Virus record (IMG/VR): IMGVR_UViG_3300047457_000243 | Location: 1 to 25,866 of that record | From: a virus | Direction: 5' to 3' (one strand) | Length of the DNA: 25,866 nucleotides | In this document: positions 12,435-19,073 of the stretch, one piece after another | How the letters are laid out: every line of letters begins with the position of its first letter | How positions within the stretch are numbered: position 1 is the first letter of the stretch | Notes under the pieces: generated by a model | What the model was told of the DNA's origin: nothing | Database searches by the model: none | The model's input: only the letters and a program-made list of their open reading frames with translations | Translations under genes and position numbers: made by a program

Positions 12435-14537
12435 ATGCAGCCGAAACGCCTGACGGACGACGAAATCCAGAACACCATCACAACCTCCGTGCGCGAGGCC
12501 GTGGACTTCGTGGAAACCGAAGTTGCGCCAGACCGCATCAAATCGCAAAAATATTTCGACGGAAAGTCTGCGGTTGACTACGAGGAAGGCCGGTCGAAGG
12601 TCGTGGCAACCAAGGTGCGTGACACGATCCGGGCCATCAAGCCCGCGCTGATGCGTGTGTTCCTGCAATCCGACAAGCCGGTGGAGTTTATCCCGAACAC
12701 GCCGCAAGCTGTCATGGGCGCAGATCAGGCGACCAAATACGCCAAGTATGTGTTTGAGCGGAACAACGGCTTCCGTATCCTGTCGGACGTTTTCCACGAC
12801 GCGCTTATCAAAAAGGTTGGCGTGGCTAAGGTTTACTACGACGAGGTGCAGCACGTTGAGATTGACGAATACAGCGACCTGACGCCCGAACAGCTTGCTT
12901 ACATCGAAAACGACCCGGAAAGCGAAGTTCTGTCGCAGGAAGAAACGATCATTGCCGAGGCCGTGATTGACGAAATGGGCATCGAAATCCAGCCGCGCAT
13001 GGCCAGCTATAATCTGCGCGTTGCCCGCACGTCCACCAAGGGCCAGATCAAAATCCAGAGTGTTGCCCCCGAGGACTTCTTCGTGGATCGCATGGCCGTC
13101 AGCATTGACGACTGCTACGTCTGCGGCCACACCAGCGAAGCCCGCGTTGGCGATCTGGTGGCGATGGGCTTTGACTTTGAGACTGTCTACAACCTCGCGG
13201 GCGCATCTGACGGCACGGTTGATGACGAAGAAGAAATGGCCCGCCGTGGCTGGGACGACACCGACGACGATGAAAACGCCGCCGATCCGTCCATGCGGAA
13301 GGTGCAATTCACCGAAGCCTACATGAAGATGGACATTGAAGGCACGGGGGTTCCGCGCCTTTACAAGTTTATCTGCGCTGGCAACGACTACGAAATCTTG
13401 GACTACGAACTGTGCGACTACATCCCGTTCGCCATCTTCGAGGTTGACCCGGAGCCACACACTTTCTTCGGTCGCTCGCTGGCCGAGATCGTGATTGAAG
13501 ATCAGGACGCGGCAACGTCGCTTTTGCGTGGCCTTCTGGATGGTCTGGCGATGGCCAACAATCCCCGCGTGATGGCCGTTCAAAACCTTGTGAACATGGA
13601 CGACCTTCTCAATAACGAGATCGGCGGCGTGGTGCGCGTCAAGGACATCAACGCCCTGCGCGAGTTTTCCATCGGCGGCGCTGCATCGGCGGCCCTGCCA
13701 GCCCTGCAATTCTACGACGAGTCGATCCGCGCCAAGACGGGCGTGACGGGCGCGGCTATGGGCATGGATGCGGATGCGCTGCAATCTCAGACTGCCGCTG
13801 GCGTCAATGCCGCCGTGCAGGCCGCCTCGGCTGTCTCTGAGTTGATCGCCCGCAATCTGGCCGAAGGCGGTATGCGGCAGATGTTCCGTCTGATTGCCCA
13901 GATCGCTCGCGCCAATCCGAACCCGAACGAGATGATGCGGCTTGACGGCCAGTTTGTCCCGGTCGATCCGCGTTCGTGGACCAACGATCTGGATTTGGTC
14001 ACCAACGTCGGCTTGGGCAACAATCGCCGCGAGGATCGGATTGCGGCCCTGCAAATGACCATGCAGACGCAGATGCAAATCTGGCAAGCCTACGGGCCGC
14101 AGAACGGCATCGTCACGATGACCGGCATCCGCAACACGCTGGCTGACATCTTGGGCATGGCTGGCATCCACAACGCGGATCGATATTACAACCCGATGAA
14201 CCCGCGGACCGAGCAAATGCTGATGACGCAGGCCGCGCAGGCCGCGCAGGGTGATCCGTCTCAGCAGCAGCCGTCTGACCCCAATCAGGCGTTCTTGCAG
14301 GCAGAGCAGATGAAGATGTCGGCCCGCGTGCAGGCTGACATGGCCAAGACGCAGCTTGACGCCCGGCGCCTGCAAATGGAAGATGACCTGAAGCGGGACC
14401 AGATGGCTCAAGACTTGGCTTTGAAGGCCGCCGAGCTTCTCGCTAAAACCGGCGTTCAGCTTGATCTGAATGCTATCAAGCGTGAACAGCAAATGCCGAG
14501 GATGCCATTTGTCCCTAATCAAACAGCGGGCTTCTGA
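12435..14537 (+). CDS. Portal protein (P22/SU10-like)
   Basis: This 700-aa protein starts at ATG with GGAG upstream. The N-terminus contains TTSVREAVDFVETEVAPDR, QKYFDG and KVRDTIRAIKPALMRVF. It continues with VEFIPN, QATKYAKYVF, KKVGVAKVYYDE and VAPEDFFVDRMA. HTFFGRSLAEIVIEDQDAA and LLRGLLDGLAMANNPRVMA form the core portal signature. The C-terminal ~100 residues are Gln/Met-rich coiled coil, suiting a portal barrel or scaffold contact. Length and motifs match long podovirus portals. In the virion it forms the dodecameric DNA channel and packaging motor dock. The scaffold and capsid genes follow. Confidence 0.9.
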   Translation: MQPKRLTDDEIQNTITTSVREAVDFVETEVAPDRIKSQKYFDGKSAVDYEEGRSKVVATKVRDTIRAIKPALMRVFLQSDKPVEFIPNTPQAVMGADQATKYAKYVFERNNGFRILSDVFHDALIKKVGVAKVYYDEVQHVEIDEYSDLTPEQLAYIENDPESEVLSQEETIIAEAVIDEMGIEIQPRMASYNLRVARTSTKGQIKIQSVAPEDFFVDRMAVSIDDCYVCGHTSEARVGDLVAMGFDFETVYNLAGASDGTVDDEEEMARRGWDDTDDDENAADPSMRKVQFTEAYMKMDIEGTGVPRLYKFICAGNDYEILDYELCDYIPFAIFEVDPEPHTFFGRSLAEIVIEDQDAATSLLRGLLDGLAMANNPRVMAVQNLVNMDDLLNNEIGGVVRVKDINALREFSIGGAASAALPALQFYDESIRAKTGVTGAAMGMDADALQSQTAAGVNAAVQAASAVSELIARNLAEGGMRQMFRLIAQIARANPNPNEMMRLDGQFVPVDPRSWTNDLDLVTNVGLGNNRREDRIAALQMTMQTQMQIWQAYGPQNGIVTMTGIRNTLADILGMAGIHNADRYYNPMNPRTEQMLMTQAAQAAQGDPSQQQPSDPNQAFLQAEQMKMSARVQADMAKTQLDARRLQMEDDLKRDQMAQDLALKAAELLAKTGVQLDLNAIKREQQMPRMPFVPNQTAGF

Positions 14538-14757
14538 AGCCAAAACACTCCTCGCCGATCACGTTTTCCAAGCCGTGATCGGCGAAATCCGCAATGATGC
14601 AGTGGGGGTGTTTTTAGACGCAACCTGTGATATAAACAGGGTCGCGGCGGCACACGAACATGTGCGCGCCGTTCAACTCATTCTCGACGCTCTCCAAGCG
14701 CGACTAGACGCCGAGATCGTTGAGTCAAAACAGGATCGGGACCGTGCAAACGACTGA
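14509..14757 (+). CDS. Small conserved protein between portal and scaffold, TTG start
   Basis: This 82-aa protein is proposed from TTG 14509 inside the portal 3' end, with GAGGA at 14498-14502 six bases upstream. ATG 14470 would give a longer protein but lacks such a site. It begins SLIKQRASEAKTLLADHVFQ and continues AVIGEIRNDAVGVFLDA, then AHEHVRAVQLILDALQARLD and a charged tail. It is predicted to be mostly helical. It overlaps both the portal end and the scaffold start. The function is unknown. A packaging or portal-assembly accessory is possible from position only. Confidence 0.65.
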   Translation: MSLIKQRASEAKTLLADHVFQAVIGEIRNDAVGVFLDATCDINRVAAAHEHVRAVQLILDALQARLDAEIVESKQDRDRAND

Positions 14758-15709
14758 TACACTCGAAGCGGCTGTTGATAGCCTGCTTGCTCCTATGAAC
14801 GACGAACCGAAAGCCCAACCCGAAACGGCGGCAGAGGAAGATGTCGAGGACGAAACTGAAGCGGATTATGAAGGCCAAGAGGCCGATGCCGCAGACAATT
14901 CCGAGGACGACGCTGAAGAAGCCGACGCCGAGGATGATGAGGATGAGGAAAGCGAAGAAACCGACGCTCAAGAGACGCCAACGACCTTTTCTGTCAAAGT
15001 TGACGGCAAGGAAACGCAGGTCACCCTCGATGAGCTAAAGCGGTCCTATTCGGGAAATGCCTACATCCAGAAGGGAATGCAGGAGGCCGCCGCCGTCCGT
15101 AAGGAAGCTGAAAACCTCTACTACACCCTTCAAAACGAGCGACAGCAGTTTCTTGCGACGTTGGAAAGTGTGCAACAGCAAGGAATTATGAAGGCCCCGC
15201 AGGCTCCTGATATTCGAATGCTGGACAGTGATCCCATCGGATACATGCAGGAGAAGGCGAAATACGAAATCAAGGCGCAAGAGTTTCAGGCGCAGCAACG
15301 GCAACTTCACGAGCAGGCACAGCGTCAATCGGCGCTTCAAGAGCAGGCTCGTCAAGTGGAACTGCAAGAGCAGGCCCGCCGTTTGACTGAGGCCATCCCT
15401 GAGTTTGCCAACCCTGAAAAGGCGGCTGCACTCAAGGCGAACCTCGTTAGCTTTGCTTCAAAGTACGGGCTTTCGGCTGAAGAAGTGGCAAGCACAGTCG
15501 ATGCTCGCCTCGTGCAAGTCTTGTATGACGCTTATCGCTACAATCAGCTTTCAGCGGTAAAGGCTCAGGCCAAAAAGCCCGAACCCCCGCGCAACGTAAA
15601 GCCGATGCCGCGTAAGCCTGCACCTGAGAAAATCGTTCGTGATCGACAGATGAAGGCCGCAAAGAGATCAGGGAAGCCAGAGGCTTTTATTGATCTTCTT
15701 TTCCGTTAA
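14744..15709 (+). CDS. Capsid scaffolding protein
   Basis: This 321-aa protein is chosen from GTG 14744, with AGGA at 14732-14735; TTG 14720 is an alternative start. The first ~85 residues after the start are extremely acidic (runs of Asp/Glu). Then comes FSVKVDGKETQVTLDELKRS, a Gln/Glu-rich coiled coil (LHEQAQRQSALQEQARQVEL), a helical domain and a basic Pro/Lys-rich C-terminal tail. Acidic N-terminus, central coil and basic tail immediately before the major capsid gene fit podovirus scaffolds, whose basic end binds the coat. No protease motif is visible. Confidence 0.8.
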   Translation: MQTTDTLEAAVDSLLAPMNDEPKAQPETAAEEDVEDETEADYEGQEADAADNSEDDAEEADAEDDEDEESEETDAQETPTTFSVKVDGKETQVTLDELKRSYSGNAYIQKGMQEAAAVRKEAENLYYTLQNERQQFLATLESVQQQGIMKAPQAPDIRMLDSDPIGYMQEKAKYEIKAQEFQAQQRQLHEQAQRQSALQEQARQVELQEQARRLTEAIPEFANPEKAAALKANLVSFASKYGLSAEEVASTVDARLVQVLYDAYRYNQLSAVKAQAKKPEPPRNVKPMPRKPAPEKIVRDRQMKAAKRSGKPEAFIDLLFR

Positions 15710-15728
15710 ACCCTGAAAGGACGACATC

Positions 15729-16685
15729 ATGGCACAGCCAACAAATACCCTCGACTCCTACGACGTTCGCGGTATCCGCGAAGACCTTTCCGACGTGATC
15801 TATGATATTTCGCCGGAAGAAACCCCCTTCTACACCGCTTGCGCTAAGGCAAAAGCGACCAACACGCTGCACGAGTGGCAGACCGACGCACTGCGTGCTT
15901 CGGGCGATAACGCTCACATCGAAGGCGACGACACCATTGCTGAAGCACGTTCGGCCACTGTTCGCCTAAATAATCGGACGCAAATCTTCAAAAATAGCGT
16001 CGTGATCCCGGGCACCGATCAGGGTCTGAACAAAGCCGGTCGCGCACGCGAAATGGCCTATCAGGTTCTGAAGATTGCCAAAGAGCAGAAGCTGGACATC
16101 GAAAAGGCAATGTTTGCTAACCAAGCAAAAGTTGCTGGTGACAGCACGACTGCACGCCGCATGGCTGGCGTTCCGGCTTGGCTGACCACCAACACCAACT
16201 TCCAATCCGGTTCTTCGGGTGCTGACCCCACCGGCGACGGCTCCAACGCCCGCACCGACGATGGCACCCCGACTGCATTCTCGCAGACCAAGTTCGACAG
16301 CGTGATGCAGTCGATCTGGGTCTCGGGCGGCAAGCCGGACTCGGTGTACCTGTCGGCGTTCCAGATGAACCTCGCTCTGGGCTTCACTGGTAACAACAAC
16401 CAGCGTTCGAACATCACGGCTGAAGCTGAGAAGGTCATCAAGCACATGGCCGTCTACGTCACCCCGTGGGGTACTGTTGAATTCAAACCGACCCGCGAAA
16501 ACCGCGCTCGGGACGTGTTCATCATGCAGGACGACATGTGGGCTGTTGGCGTTCTGCGTGCGACCAAGAACGAAGAACTGGCCAAGACCGGCGACAACGA
16601 AAAGCGTCAGGTTGTCACCGAACTGACCTTGGTCTGCCGGAACGAGAAATCGTCGGGCGGCATCTACGACAACACCACCTCGTAA
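15729..16685 (+). CDS. Major capsid protein, SU10/DUF5309 family
   Basis: This 318-aa protein starts at ATG with AAGGA upstream. The N-terminus contains SYDVRGIREDLSDVIYDISP and EETPFYTACAKAKATNTLHEW. These are followed by EGDDTIAEARSATVRLNNRT, FKNSVVIPGTDQGLNKAGRA, REMAYQVLKIAKEQKLDIEK and RMAGVPAWLTTNTN. These are hallmark strings of the DUF5309/SU10 major capsid family, an HK97-fold coat protein. Codon use is strongly biased to preferred codons (GGC, CTG, GAC), as expected for a highly expressed gene. It ends before a strong terminator hairpin. Confidence 0.92.
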   Translation: MAQPTNTLDSYDVRGIREDLSDVIYDISPEETPFYTACAKAKATNTLHEWQTDALRASGDNAHIEGDDTIAEARSATVRLNNRTQIFKNSVVIPGTDQGLNKAGRAREMAYQVLKIAKEQKLDIEKAMFANQAKVAGDSTTARRMAGVPAWLTTNTNFQSGSSGADPTGDGSNARTDDGTPTAFSQTKFDSVMQSIWVSGGKPDSVYLSAFQMNLALGFTGNNNQRSNITAEAEKVIKHMAVYVTPWGTVEFKPTRENRARDVFIMQDDMWAVGVLRATKNEELAKTGDNEKRQVVTELTLVCRNEKSSGGIYDNTTS

Positions 16686-17653: not shown

Positions 17654-17878
17654 ATGGACGTTATTGAATCTGTCATGAAGTGGATCGTGGCCCCCGTGGC
17701 CGCCTTTGTCTGGCTCATGCACCTCAAGCAGCAAAGCCATGCCACCGACATTGAGGTCTTGAAGGCCCAAGCGGCGGCCACCACCAAGGCGCATGATCTC
17801 GAAATGAAGAACCTTCAAACTCTGATCCAGAAGGTCTTTGACAAACTGGACAAGATAGAAGAGAGCCTCCGCAAATGA
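17654..17878 (+). CDS. Holin-like membrane protein (TM plus coiled coil)
   Basis: This 74-aa protein starts at ATG 17654, one base after the preceding stop. An upstream in-frame extension to 17618 lies within that gene. Residues ~6-23 (SVMKWIVAPVAAFVWLMH) form one hydrophobic segment. Residues 35-74 are a charged heptad-like coiled coil ending KVFDKLDKIEESLRK. Its position directly before the endolysin, with an ATGA overlap, suggests a class III-type holin or lysis accessory. The holin assignment is inferred from topology and context only. Confidence 0.6.
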   Translation: MDVIESVMKWIVAPVAAFVWLMHLKQQSHATDIEVLKAQAAATTKAHDLEMKNLQTLIQKVFDKLDKIEESLRK

Positions 17879-18540
17879 AGATAAACCGAGCAACCGCCGA
17901 TCTGGTCAAAGAGTTTGAGGGCTTCAGCGCGAAGGCCTATAAATGCCCGGCTGGCATCTGGACAATCGGATATGGCACCACGGCTGCCGCCAACGTCGGC
18001 ATCACGCCGAAGAGTGGCATGACTATCACGCGCAGCGACGCCGAGGGTTACCTGCACGCGGCCCTAGAGAAATTCGCCAGCCAGATCGAAGATGCCATCA
18101 CCGCCCCGATCAATGAAAACGAGTTCGGGGCCTTTGTGTCTCTGGCCTACAACATCGGGCCGGGGGCGTTTCGGAAGTCATCAGCCCTGCGCCTGTTCAA
18201 CGAGGGCGACAAGACTAAAGCTGCCAACGCCCTGCTCCTCTGGAACAAGGCAGGCGGCAAGGTGCTGAAGGGTCTGACGCGCCGCCGTGAGGCCGAGCGC
18301 AAGCTGTTCTTGACGCCTGTAGGCGGTGAGTTTGAGGGCCGCACAAGCGTGGCACAATCGACCACCATGCAGGCGTCTGCCGTGCAGATCGCATCCGGCG
18401 CTGGCGCTGGCATTGCCGCCGTTGGCGCGTTGGATGGCACGGCTCAGATCGTCGCGCTGGTGTTCGCTGGCGTCGTCGTGCTGGCGGCCCTGTGGGTCAT
18501 GCGTGAGCGCCTGAAGAAGTGGGCGGAGGGCGTGAGATGA
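17875..18540 (+). CDS. GH24 lysozyme-like endolysin with C-terminal membrane anchor
   Basis: This 221-aa protein overlaps the holin-like gene (ATGA). The N-terminal GH24 domain has Glu15 in KEFEGFSAKAY, Cys24 and Thr30 in KCPAGIWTIGYGTT. This gives the E-8-(D/C)-5-T catalytic spacing of T4-like phage lysozymes. AYNIGPGAFRKSSALRLFN and LLWNKAGGKVLKGLTRRREA follow at ~91-140. There is no N-terminal signal or SAR segment. Residues ~189-209 (QIVALVFAGVVVLAALWVM) form a strong hydrophobic segment followed by a basic tail, which implies a tail-anchored enzyme. It cleaves peptidoglycan glycan strands at lysis. The anchor is unusual for this family. Confidence 0.88.
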   Translation: MKINRATADLVKEFEGFSAKAYKCPAGIWTIGYGTTAAANVGITPKSGMTITRSDAEGYLHAALEKFASQIEDAITAPINENEFGAFVSLAYNIGPGAFRKSSALRLFNEGDKTKAANALLLWNKAGGKVLKGLTRRREAERKLFLTPVGGEFEGRTSVAQSTTMQASAVQIASGAGAGIAAVGALDGTAQIVALVFAGVVVLAALWVMRERLKKWAEGVR

Positions 18541-18722
18541 TCTGGTCTTTGGTGCTTCTGGTCTGCGACGGCGCGATGTGCGTTGCCATGAGCGGACCGA
18601 TCACCAAGACAGAAGAAGAATGTTTCGCGTCCGTCGAGGAAAACGTAACATTCGTTCAAGACCAGTACGGCCTGTCTGAGGTCGTGTCATACAAATGCAT
18701 TCCTTGGGGAAGTGAAGCATGA
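18537..18722 (+). CDS. Small Cys-containing membrane/secreted lysis-cassette protein
   Basis: This 61-aa protein starts at the ATG that overlaps the endolysin stop (ATGA). An earlier in-frame start at 18519 lies inside that gene. The N-terminus MIWSLVLLVCDGAMCVAM is hydrophobic, like a short signal or anchor. Cysteines are at 10, 15, 29 and 54, and the pattern T-E-E-E-C is followed by a mostly acidic C-terminal half ending in YKCIPWGSEA. It overlaps the spanin gene by ATGA. It may act in the periplasm during lysis, but no family is recognised. It resembles the 62-aa early protein at 22120-22308 in layout. Confidence 0.65.
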   Translation: MIWSLVLLVCDGAMCVAMSGPITKTEEECFASVEENVTFVQDQYGLSEVVSYKCIPWGSEA

Positions 18723-18937
18723 TCTTCGCACGCCTGAAAATGTGGGCGATGGGGTTTGGCCTCATCGTGGCCGCGCTGGCAGCAAGCTGGTTTAGCGGCA
18801 GAAAGTCGGCTCAGGCTGACGCCAAGCAAGAGGAGCTTGAGGGCTATGTCGAAACGCGAAAGCGCATGGATGAGATTGGCCGCATGTCTGATGCTGACGC
18901 TGCCCGTGAGTGGCTGCGTGAGCGCGGTAAGCACTGA
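18719..18937 (+). CDS. Rz-like inner-membrane spanin
   Basis: This 72-aa protein begins at an ATGA overlap with the previous stop. Residues 8-25 (MWAMGFGLIVAALAASWF) are one transmembrane segment. The rest is a charged helical coiled coil (KQEELEGYVETRKRMDEIGR) ending WLRERGKH. This is the topology of Rz i-spanins, which connect the inner membrane to an outer-membrane lipoprotein. A second reading frame starting inside this gene encodes that lipoprotein. The order holin-like, endolysin, Rz, Rz1 supports the call. Confidence 0.8.
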   Translation: MIFARLKMWAMGFGLIVAALAASWFSGRKSAQADAKQEELEGYVETRKRMDEIGRMSDADAAREWLRERGKH

Positions 18938-19073
18938 TGCGGTCTGCGCCGGGACCGAAGCGGCGCGGACGGATCATGCGGCGGCATTGGCTCACGATGG
19001 TGGGCCTCTATCGGTTATCACGGGCGCGCATCTGATCCGCTTGGTTGACGCGGGCTGCGGATATGACACCTAG
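18846..19073 (+). CDS. Rz1-like outer-membrane spanin lipoprotein
   Basis: This frame lies in a different phase from the Rz-like gene and starts within it. ATG 18846 follows AGGAG at 18831-18835 and gives 75 residues; ATG 18870 is an alternative. The sequence MRLAACLMLTLPVSGCVSAV is a short signal peptide with a perfect lipobox V-S-G-C, so the mature protein would start at Cys32 (counting from 18846). The remainder is short and hydrophilic. Overlapping Rz/Rz1 genes with the lipoprotein frame extending past the Rz stop are a classic phage arrangement. It overlaps the next gene start at 19063 by 11 bp. Confidence 0.78.
   Translation: MSKRESAWMRLAACLMLTLPVSGCVSAVSTDAVCAGTEAARTDHAAALAHDGGPLSVITGAHLIRLVDAGCGYDT

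Follow-up and report, generated by a model that had tools for sequence, protein, structure and literature searches.

We describe an endolysin gene in a viral DNA of 25,866 nucleotides (IMG/VR record IMGVR_UViG_3300047457_000243; hereafter the window) whose product ends in what is almost certainly, judged by sequence comparison, a portable two-helix membrane module. This predicted hairpin appears to be a fixed part of the lysis cassette, together with a one-span coiled-coil gene and the spanins, and the catalytic domain preceding it appears to be the exchangeable part (GH24, amidase, M15 or CHAP). Endolysins with C-terminal transmembrane (TM) domains are already known; what is new is this tail family, portable across enzyme folds. 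A search of the open-access literature (subscription journals lay mostly outside it) returned no description of the module or of its portability, and the paper on the roseophages CRP-811 and CRP-406, which both carry it, does not mention it.

The gene occupies positions 17875-18540 of the plus strand and encodes 221 amino acids followed by a stop codon, exactly the frame that the initial annotation had assigned to a GH24 endolysin. The Pfam family PF00959 (Phage_lysozyme/GH24) matches residues 12 to 141 (E 2.5e-43; 147.8 bits against a gathering score of 22.3) and the PHROGs family phrog_7, endolysin, matches the open reading frame with E 2.7e-57. The T4-type lysozyme domain comprises residues 1 to 146 (17875-18312, plus strand); it was modelled by AlphaFold (AF2) with a pLDDT of about 76-94 and has lysozyme relatives in the PDB. 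A Foldseek search against viral models returned mainly lysozyme domains and was uninformative on the tail. The catalytic triad of E15 (codon 17917-17919), C24 (17944-17946) and T30 (17962-17964), all on the plus strand, has the spacing E-x8-C-x5-T of the Glu-8X-Asp/Cys-5X-Thr motif. Residues 147 to 155 (18313-18339, plus strand) form a linker that varies in length and sequence among relatives and is longer in those of up to 233 residues. The whole reading frame, tail included, is kept in relatives that share between about 55% and 98% identity; a frameshift, an assembly artefact or a chance open reading frame could be ruled out because the frame is intact at many loci and dN/dS is low.

A hydrophobicity scan found residues 1 to 25 free of hydrophobic segments, bearing out the earlier claim that the enzyme possesses neither an N-terminal signal nor a SAR segment. 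As a signal-anchor is absent before residue 26, the protein was not classed as a SAR endolysin. The cysteine at the middle triad position had also been singled out. The residue had been read correctly, but Cys is common here in tailed relatives: among dereplicated GH24 proteins, 18 tailed forms have Cys at this position and 7 have Asp, against 3 Cys and 25 Asp in the tail-less ones. Cys24 was rejected as an unusual or regulated catalytic residue, since Cys is a canonical alternative (PMC5674055) and this is the sole cysteine of the endolysin. With no second Cys to pair with C24, an internal disulfide switch of the P1 Lyz type is impossible within the chain. The Cys24 half of the initial finding is thus ordinary.

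The C-terminal module spans residues 156 to 221 (66 residues; 18340-18537, plus strand) and follows the consensus R-x4-[QE]S-x-T-[MV]-Q-A ... LDGTAQ ... RER-x-KW-x-x-G. Its lowest-energy 19-residue window, residues 191 to 209, has a summed Hessa value of -0.69 and a mean Kyte-Doolittle value of 2.54, and is followed by the basic end RERLKKWAEGVR with a net charge of +3, in agreement with the strong span at about 189-209 and the basic tail first reported. The reading of this span as a single C-terminal anchor was dropped, as both the scan and AF2 place a second, weaker helix before it. This Gly/Ala-rich segment (about residues 163-186, summed Hessa 5.4) is parted from the strong span by a short LDGT turn. 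The full-length AF2 model has helices at 163-183 and 188-217, with low confidence in the tail, and a model of the tail alone, built from 73 sequences, has helices at tail residues 8-29 and 33-62 with a mean pLDDT of 80. On the strength of one energy scale plus AlphaFold, we place helix 1 at residues 163-184 (18361-18426, plus strand) and helix 2 at residues 188-217 (18436-18525, plus strand), the latter with its core at 191-209 and then the basic stretch RERLKKWA. Purely as an illustration, the two segments of the phage 21 pinholin score 6.4 and 1.0 by the same measure.

Across 75 tails, the last 12 residues carry a charge of +1 to +5 (mostly +2 or +3), the turn 0 or -1, and the N-side of the hairpin mostly +1 or +2. 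By the positive-inside rule this pattern predicts an N-in/C-in topology. The catalytic domain is therefore likely to be cytoplasmic before triggering, a placement drawn from the tail charges and from SpmX, a GH24::2TM protein whose muramidase domain was judged largely cytoplasmic (PMC5347347). The earlier proposal of a cytoplasmic, membrane-tethered enzyme accordingly survives as the best reading of sequence and charge, without its single anchor. The last 66 residues align without gaps in 28 full-length relatives; no Pfam family, PF23987 included, matched any of 23 scanned tails above cut-off.

Searching viral contigs with the tail alone yielded 80 loci, mostly on metagenomic contigs and some of them overlapping. 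In all 80 the tail is fused to an upstream hydrolase: GH24 in 51, an amidase in 10 and other enzymes in 19 (one of these, L104, cut by the contig end). Tested representatives matched Amidase_2 (PF01510), Peptidase_M15_4 (PF13539), Peptidase_M15_3 (PF08291) and CHAP (PF05257) above the Pfam gathering scores, so that with PF00959 the same 66-residue module occurs on at least five hydrolase families in related marine-phage lysis cassettes. The isolates CRP-811 and CRP-406 carry the tail on amidases; that of CRP-406 is recorded as a lysozyme in its annotation.

Three pairs of loci from different catalytic classes were compared at the DNA level. Between L153 (M15_3) and L359 (M15_4) the DNA is alike up to the start codon, no similarity is reported in the catalytic part, and the two then match at 98.8% identity for 2.6 kb, beginning at about the tail's first base. 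The pairs L350/L184 and L121/L033 have nearly the same break points. Breaks at the start codon and at the tail indicate that enzymes are exchanged and that the tail is left in place in the cassette. In a tree of 75 tails, built from 66 columns with few forks resolved, the catalytic classes are intermingled, requiring 31 changes where 4 would be the minimum, and yet more clustered than chance; well-supported branches force 6, 5 and 3 changes for the three large classes.

Immediately upstream lies a gene (17654-17878, plus strand) for a 74-residue protein with an N-terminal TM segment and a predicted cytoplasmic coiled coil, N-out/C-in by charge and without a Pfam match above cut-off. It is a candidate holin, anti-holin or releasin-like partner. 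Its layout, an N-out/C-in TM segment with a cytoplasmic domain, resembles that of the Mu gp25 releasin (PMC9239132), of HolAP from phage AP1 (PMC8879335) and of Enc34 ORF38, and 1-TM coiled-coil genes of this kind may commonly accompany membrane-bound endolysins and be poorly named. The gene is conserved across several catalytic types; it was rejected as the element that the tail replaces, because it occurs in both tailed and tail-less cassettes.

Downstream, a 61-residue protein with a hydrophobic N-terminus and Cys residues (18537-18722, plus strand) is present in part of the cassettes only. It is followed by conserved spanin-like genes. The i-spanin-like (Rz) protein (18719-18937, plus strand) has 72 residues and an N-terminal TM segment, matches the Rz-like spanin family phrog_1026 (E 2.1e-6) and is conserved beside the endolysin. 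The o-spanin-like (Rz1) lipoprotein (lipobox LPVSGC; MRLAACLMLTLPVSGC) is encoded at 18870-19073 (plus strand), starting within the i-spanin gene in another frame and extending beyond its end. Further upstream, at 12435-16685, the window encodes a portal protein and a major capsid protein matching, respectively, PF23899 (SU10 portal) and PF17236 (SU10_MCP), with a scaffolding protein (phrog_3927) between them, by sequence a podovirus-type head module. The 25.9-kb window may be a genome fragment, in which case a holin might be encoded elsewhere in the genome.

The content of related cassettes bears on what the hairpin does. We scored 144 cassettes, dereplicated at 85%, for a separate small 2-TM open reading frame nearby, with genes predicted by a simple caller and TM segments by an energy threshold. 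Of the 75 tailed cassettes, 3 had such a gene by these calls, as did 40 of the 69 without a tail (Fisher p 1.8e-13, a value that overstates the independence of the sample, since too few phylogenetically independent contrasts are supported for significance). The same pattern was found within each large enzyme class: 1/25 tailed against 14/31 tail-less for GH24, 1/26 against 13/18 for amidases and 0/20 against 13/20 for M15_4. Both downstream calls in tailed cassettes (L346 and L082) look like mis-read o-spanins. By the same rough gene calls, a separate 2-TM gene is also missing from 29 of the 69 cassettes without a tail, and the counts as a whole hinge on the calling of short open reading frames. 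At the level of gene content, we consider the evidence that tail and separate 2-TM gene nearly exclude each other to be strong, though short of conclusive.

In several tail-less relatives the separate gene can be assigned by alignment to PF23987, a holin family (for one member, Pfam gave E 2.3e-15), and its start lies only a few bases from the stop codon of the endolysin. At two loci (L066:3001-3663 and L232:3001-3711) PF23987 (Phage_holin_10, Pam3 gp28) is fused in frame to the C-terminus of the GH24 enzyme. These fusions set a precedent in nature for the attachment of a recognised holin family to this endolysin. The hairpin of the window was rejected as a member of PF23987 or of the Enc34 or LysAP tail families, as profile comparison detected no homology (hhalign 0.2-0.5% for PF23987). 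The equivalence we propose is consequently one of function and not of descent.

On balance, we favour reading the protein as a GH24 endolysin joined through a linker to an N-in/C-in hairpin, a module resembling a class II holin that would tether the enzyme in cis. The hairpin is similar to class II holins in its size, its distribution of charges and its cassette position, and it has by prediction two TM helices, a short turn and a basic C-terminus; it departs from them in that no small stand-alone copy was found, every hairpin among the called genes of the scored cassettes being fused to a hydrolase. That the module tethers is well supported. That C-terminal TM domains matter is indicated by LysAP, M4Lys and SpmX (PMC8879335, PMC7143992, PMC5347347). 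A holin function of the hairpin is our inference, and it may or may not be that the hairpin itself supplies the 2-TM holin function; the data suggest a single protein that may be both seated in the membrane and involved in opening the cell. More tentatively, the hairpin could be a true holin domain, with one polypeptide serving as holin and endolysin and one transferable membrane module serving at least five enzyme families, joined to whichever hydrolase the cassette has acquired. Finding neither a free-standing hairpin among the called genes nor homology to PF23987 weakens the case for descent from a holin, and in M4Lys, an unrelated analogue, the TMD alone is bacteriostatic and not lytic (PMC7143992), which speaks against a self-sufficient holin there.

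Under the tethered, holin-like reading, the catalytic domain would be synthesised in the cytoplasm, where the hairpin would keep it attached to the inner membrane. Late in infection, the hairpins would gather and open or depolarise this membrane, either by themselves or together with the 1-TM protein encoded upstream. The attached enzyme would then reach the peptidoglycan at the membrane lesion, and the spanins would finish the outer membrane.

A less probable, though serious, alternative is that the hairpin only concentrates the enzyme at the inner membrane, which would be opened or collapsed by the 1-TM coiled-coil protein encoded upstream, acting as holin or releasin. The upstream gene adjoins the hydrolase across several catalytic types, its layout resembles those of Mu gp25, HolAP and Enc34 ORF38, and LysAP accumulates in the cytosol when its TMD is removed (PMC8879335). 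Against this, the upstream gene coexists with a separate 2-TM gene in the tail-less cassette L067 (and a similar 1-TM gene is present in L072), so that some 2-TM function is present in addition to that of the upstream protein; nor would plain tethering account for the near-exclusion seen in the cassette counts.

It is improbable that the tail acts as a C-terminal SAR-like export signal, yielding an inactive periplasmic enzyme tethered N-out/C-in by one effective span and freed or activated on depolarisation. Such export has been put forward for M4Lys and LysAP, both able to lyse E. coli when expressed with no holin (PMC7143992, PMC8879335), and azide delays lysis by LysAP, suggesting Sec (PMC8879335); here, the basic C-terminus fits C-in and helix 1 is weakly hydrophobic, as SAR segments are. 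The N-terminal part of our protein carries no signal, however, and two helices fit N-in/C-in better. Lysis by M4Lys is only delayed by azide and not blocked (PMC7143992), the GH24::2TM protein SpmX was judged largely cytoplasmic (PMC5347347), and no route is known by which a C-terminal signal exports an N-terminal hydrophilic domain (PMC8943055). That this is an ordinary soluble-type endolysin with a functionless, neutral tail is very improbable even though many GH24 endolysins are tail-less, for purifying selection on the tail matches that on the catalytic domain and already refutes neutrality (dN/dS 0.04-0.23 and 0.06-0.14, respectively, from few pairs with dS often near saturation), residues are near-invariant across 73-75 diverse tails, and the tail is retained through catalytic-domain swaps.

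With its N-terminal hydrolase, C-terminal TM segments and place in a lysis cassette, the protein belongs with the C-terminal-TM endolysins of the LysAP, M4Lys and Enc34 kind. The earlier contrast with soluble and SAR endolysins holds on sequence, but the topology is not without parallel, as LysAP, M4Lys and Enc34 ORF39 illustrate. LysAP, from Acidovorax oryzae phage AP1, is close in plan: a GH24 enzyme (E-x8-[D/C]-x5-T) with a C-terminal TM span and basic residues, preceded by the 1-TM N-out/C-in protein HolAP as our endolysin is by the upstream gene, and dependent on its TMD for lysis and membrane localisation (PMC8879335). It differs in having Asp in the triad, in being described with a single TMD and in that spanins were not reported there. 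No other phage record searched contained its tail, which gave an hhalign value of 11.9% against the hairpin, with only the end of the TM span and an ER-K stretch aligning. M4Lys, Enc34 ORF39 and Siskin likewise combine a catalytic domain with a C-terminal two-helix TMD (PMC7143992, PMC8943055), and the Enc34-type cassette has the same order as the window (1-TM coiled-coil 'holin', endolysin::2TM, Rz, Rz1). Their catalytic domain (PHA02564) is unrelated, their tail is dissimilar (hhalign 0.2%, Enc34), and the type has been reported as limited to Chivirus and relatives (PMC7143992, PMC8943055). Common descent of the tail with LysAP or Enc34 was thus not detected by these comparisons, though a distant kinship is possible.

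Other relatives share parts of this architecture. The Caulobacter polarity factor SpmX (NF051871) also has a GH24 domain followed by two C-terminal TM segments, and matches residues 2 to 159 of the endolysin with E 1.2e-32, far below the NCBIfam cut-off; it differs in its cellular role, its Pro-rich middle region and its undetected lysozyme activity (PMC5347347). BgtA of BaGTA (NF058676) matches residues 2 to 215 of 221 (E 2.7e-39), but at 135 bits against a curated cut-off of 315 the protein was not assigned to that family. Phage_holin_10 (PF23987) shares with the hairpin two TM segments, a basic C-terminal end and a position adjoining or fused to the same GH24 family, without detectable homology. 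The SAR endolysins P1 Lyz, R21 and Mu gp22 are membrane-associated GH24 enzymes, P1 Lyz also with Cys in the triad (PMC3556154); their SAR segment is N-terminal and exports the enzyme, whereas here the module is C-terminal and there is one Cys. The endolysins of another roseophage group were reported to be free of membrane anchors (PMC6775973).

How a membrane-joined endolysin gets to the cell wall was left as an open question by the authors working on LysAP, M4Lys and Enc34. Natural tail-less relatives with a separate 2-TM gene, together with natural holin fusions, make that question open to swap experiments. The five-family module, the tail-less relatives and the holin fusions suggest that a single chain can combine the functions of holin and endolysin.

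In 114 of 150 distinct tails, the codon following S-T-T at the start of helix 1 (window 18367-18369, plus strand; tail residue 10) reads ATG or GTG, and GTG makes up 78% of the Val codons at this position compared with 44% elsewhere in the tail. An internal start here could possibly yield a free hairpin as a second product. A Shine-Dalgarno-like motif precedes the putative start in 1 of the 150 tails, and the codon bias is otherwise explicable, as a one-base exchange of Met for Val gives GTG anyway.

Tail-less relatives often end in a short, amphipathic-looking and possibly membrane-active helix after a linker (e.g. ESTLAAIFNAIVALFQGLKK and SLVTVIIRAIAAMFGVK), as in L074, L210, L213, L217-L219, L224, L229-L231 and others.

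The bacterial genomes that carry the tail are nearly all Rhodobacteraceae. It is rare in bacterial chromosomes, with 11 loci in genome contigs and presence in 2 of 100 Rhodobacteraceae genomes searched; one locus each was found in a Beijerinckiaceae MAG and an Opitutae MAG, the latter possibly a binning error. Eight of the 11 (L165-L172, CATOSB01) are hairpin-tailed amidase copies at different sites of one Rhodobacteraceae MAG, all with the same 222-residue frame, as if from a multi-copy or transposable prophage.
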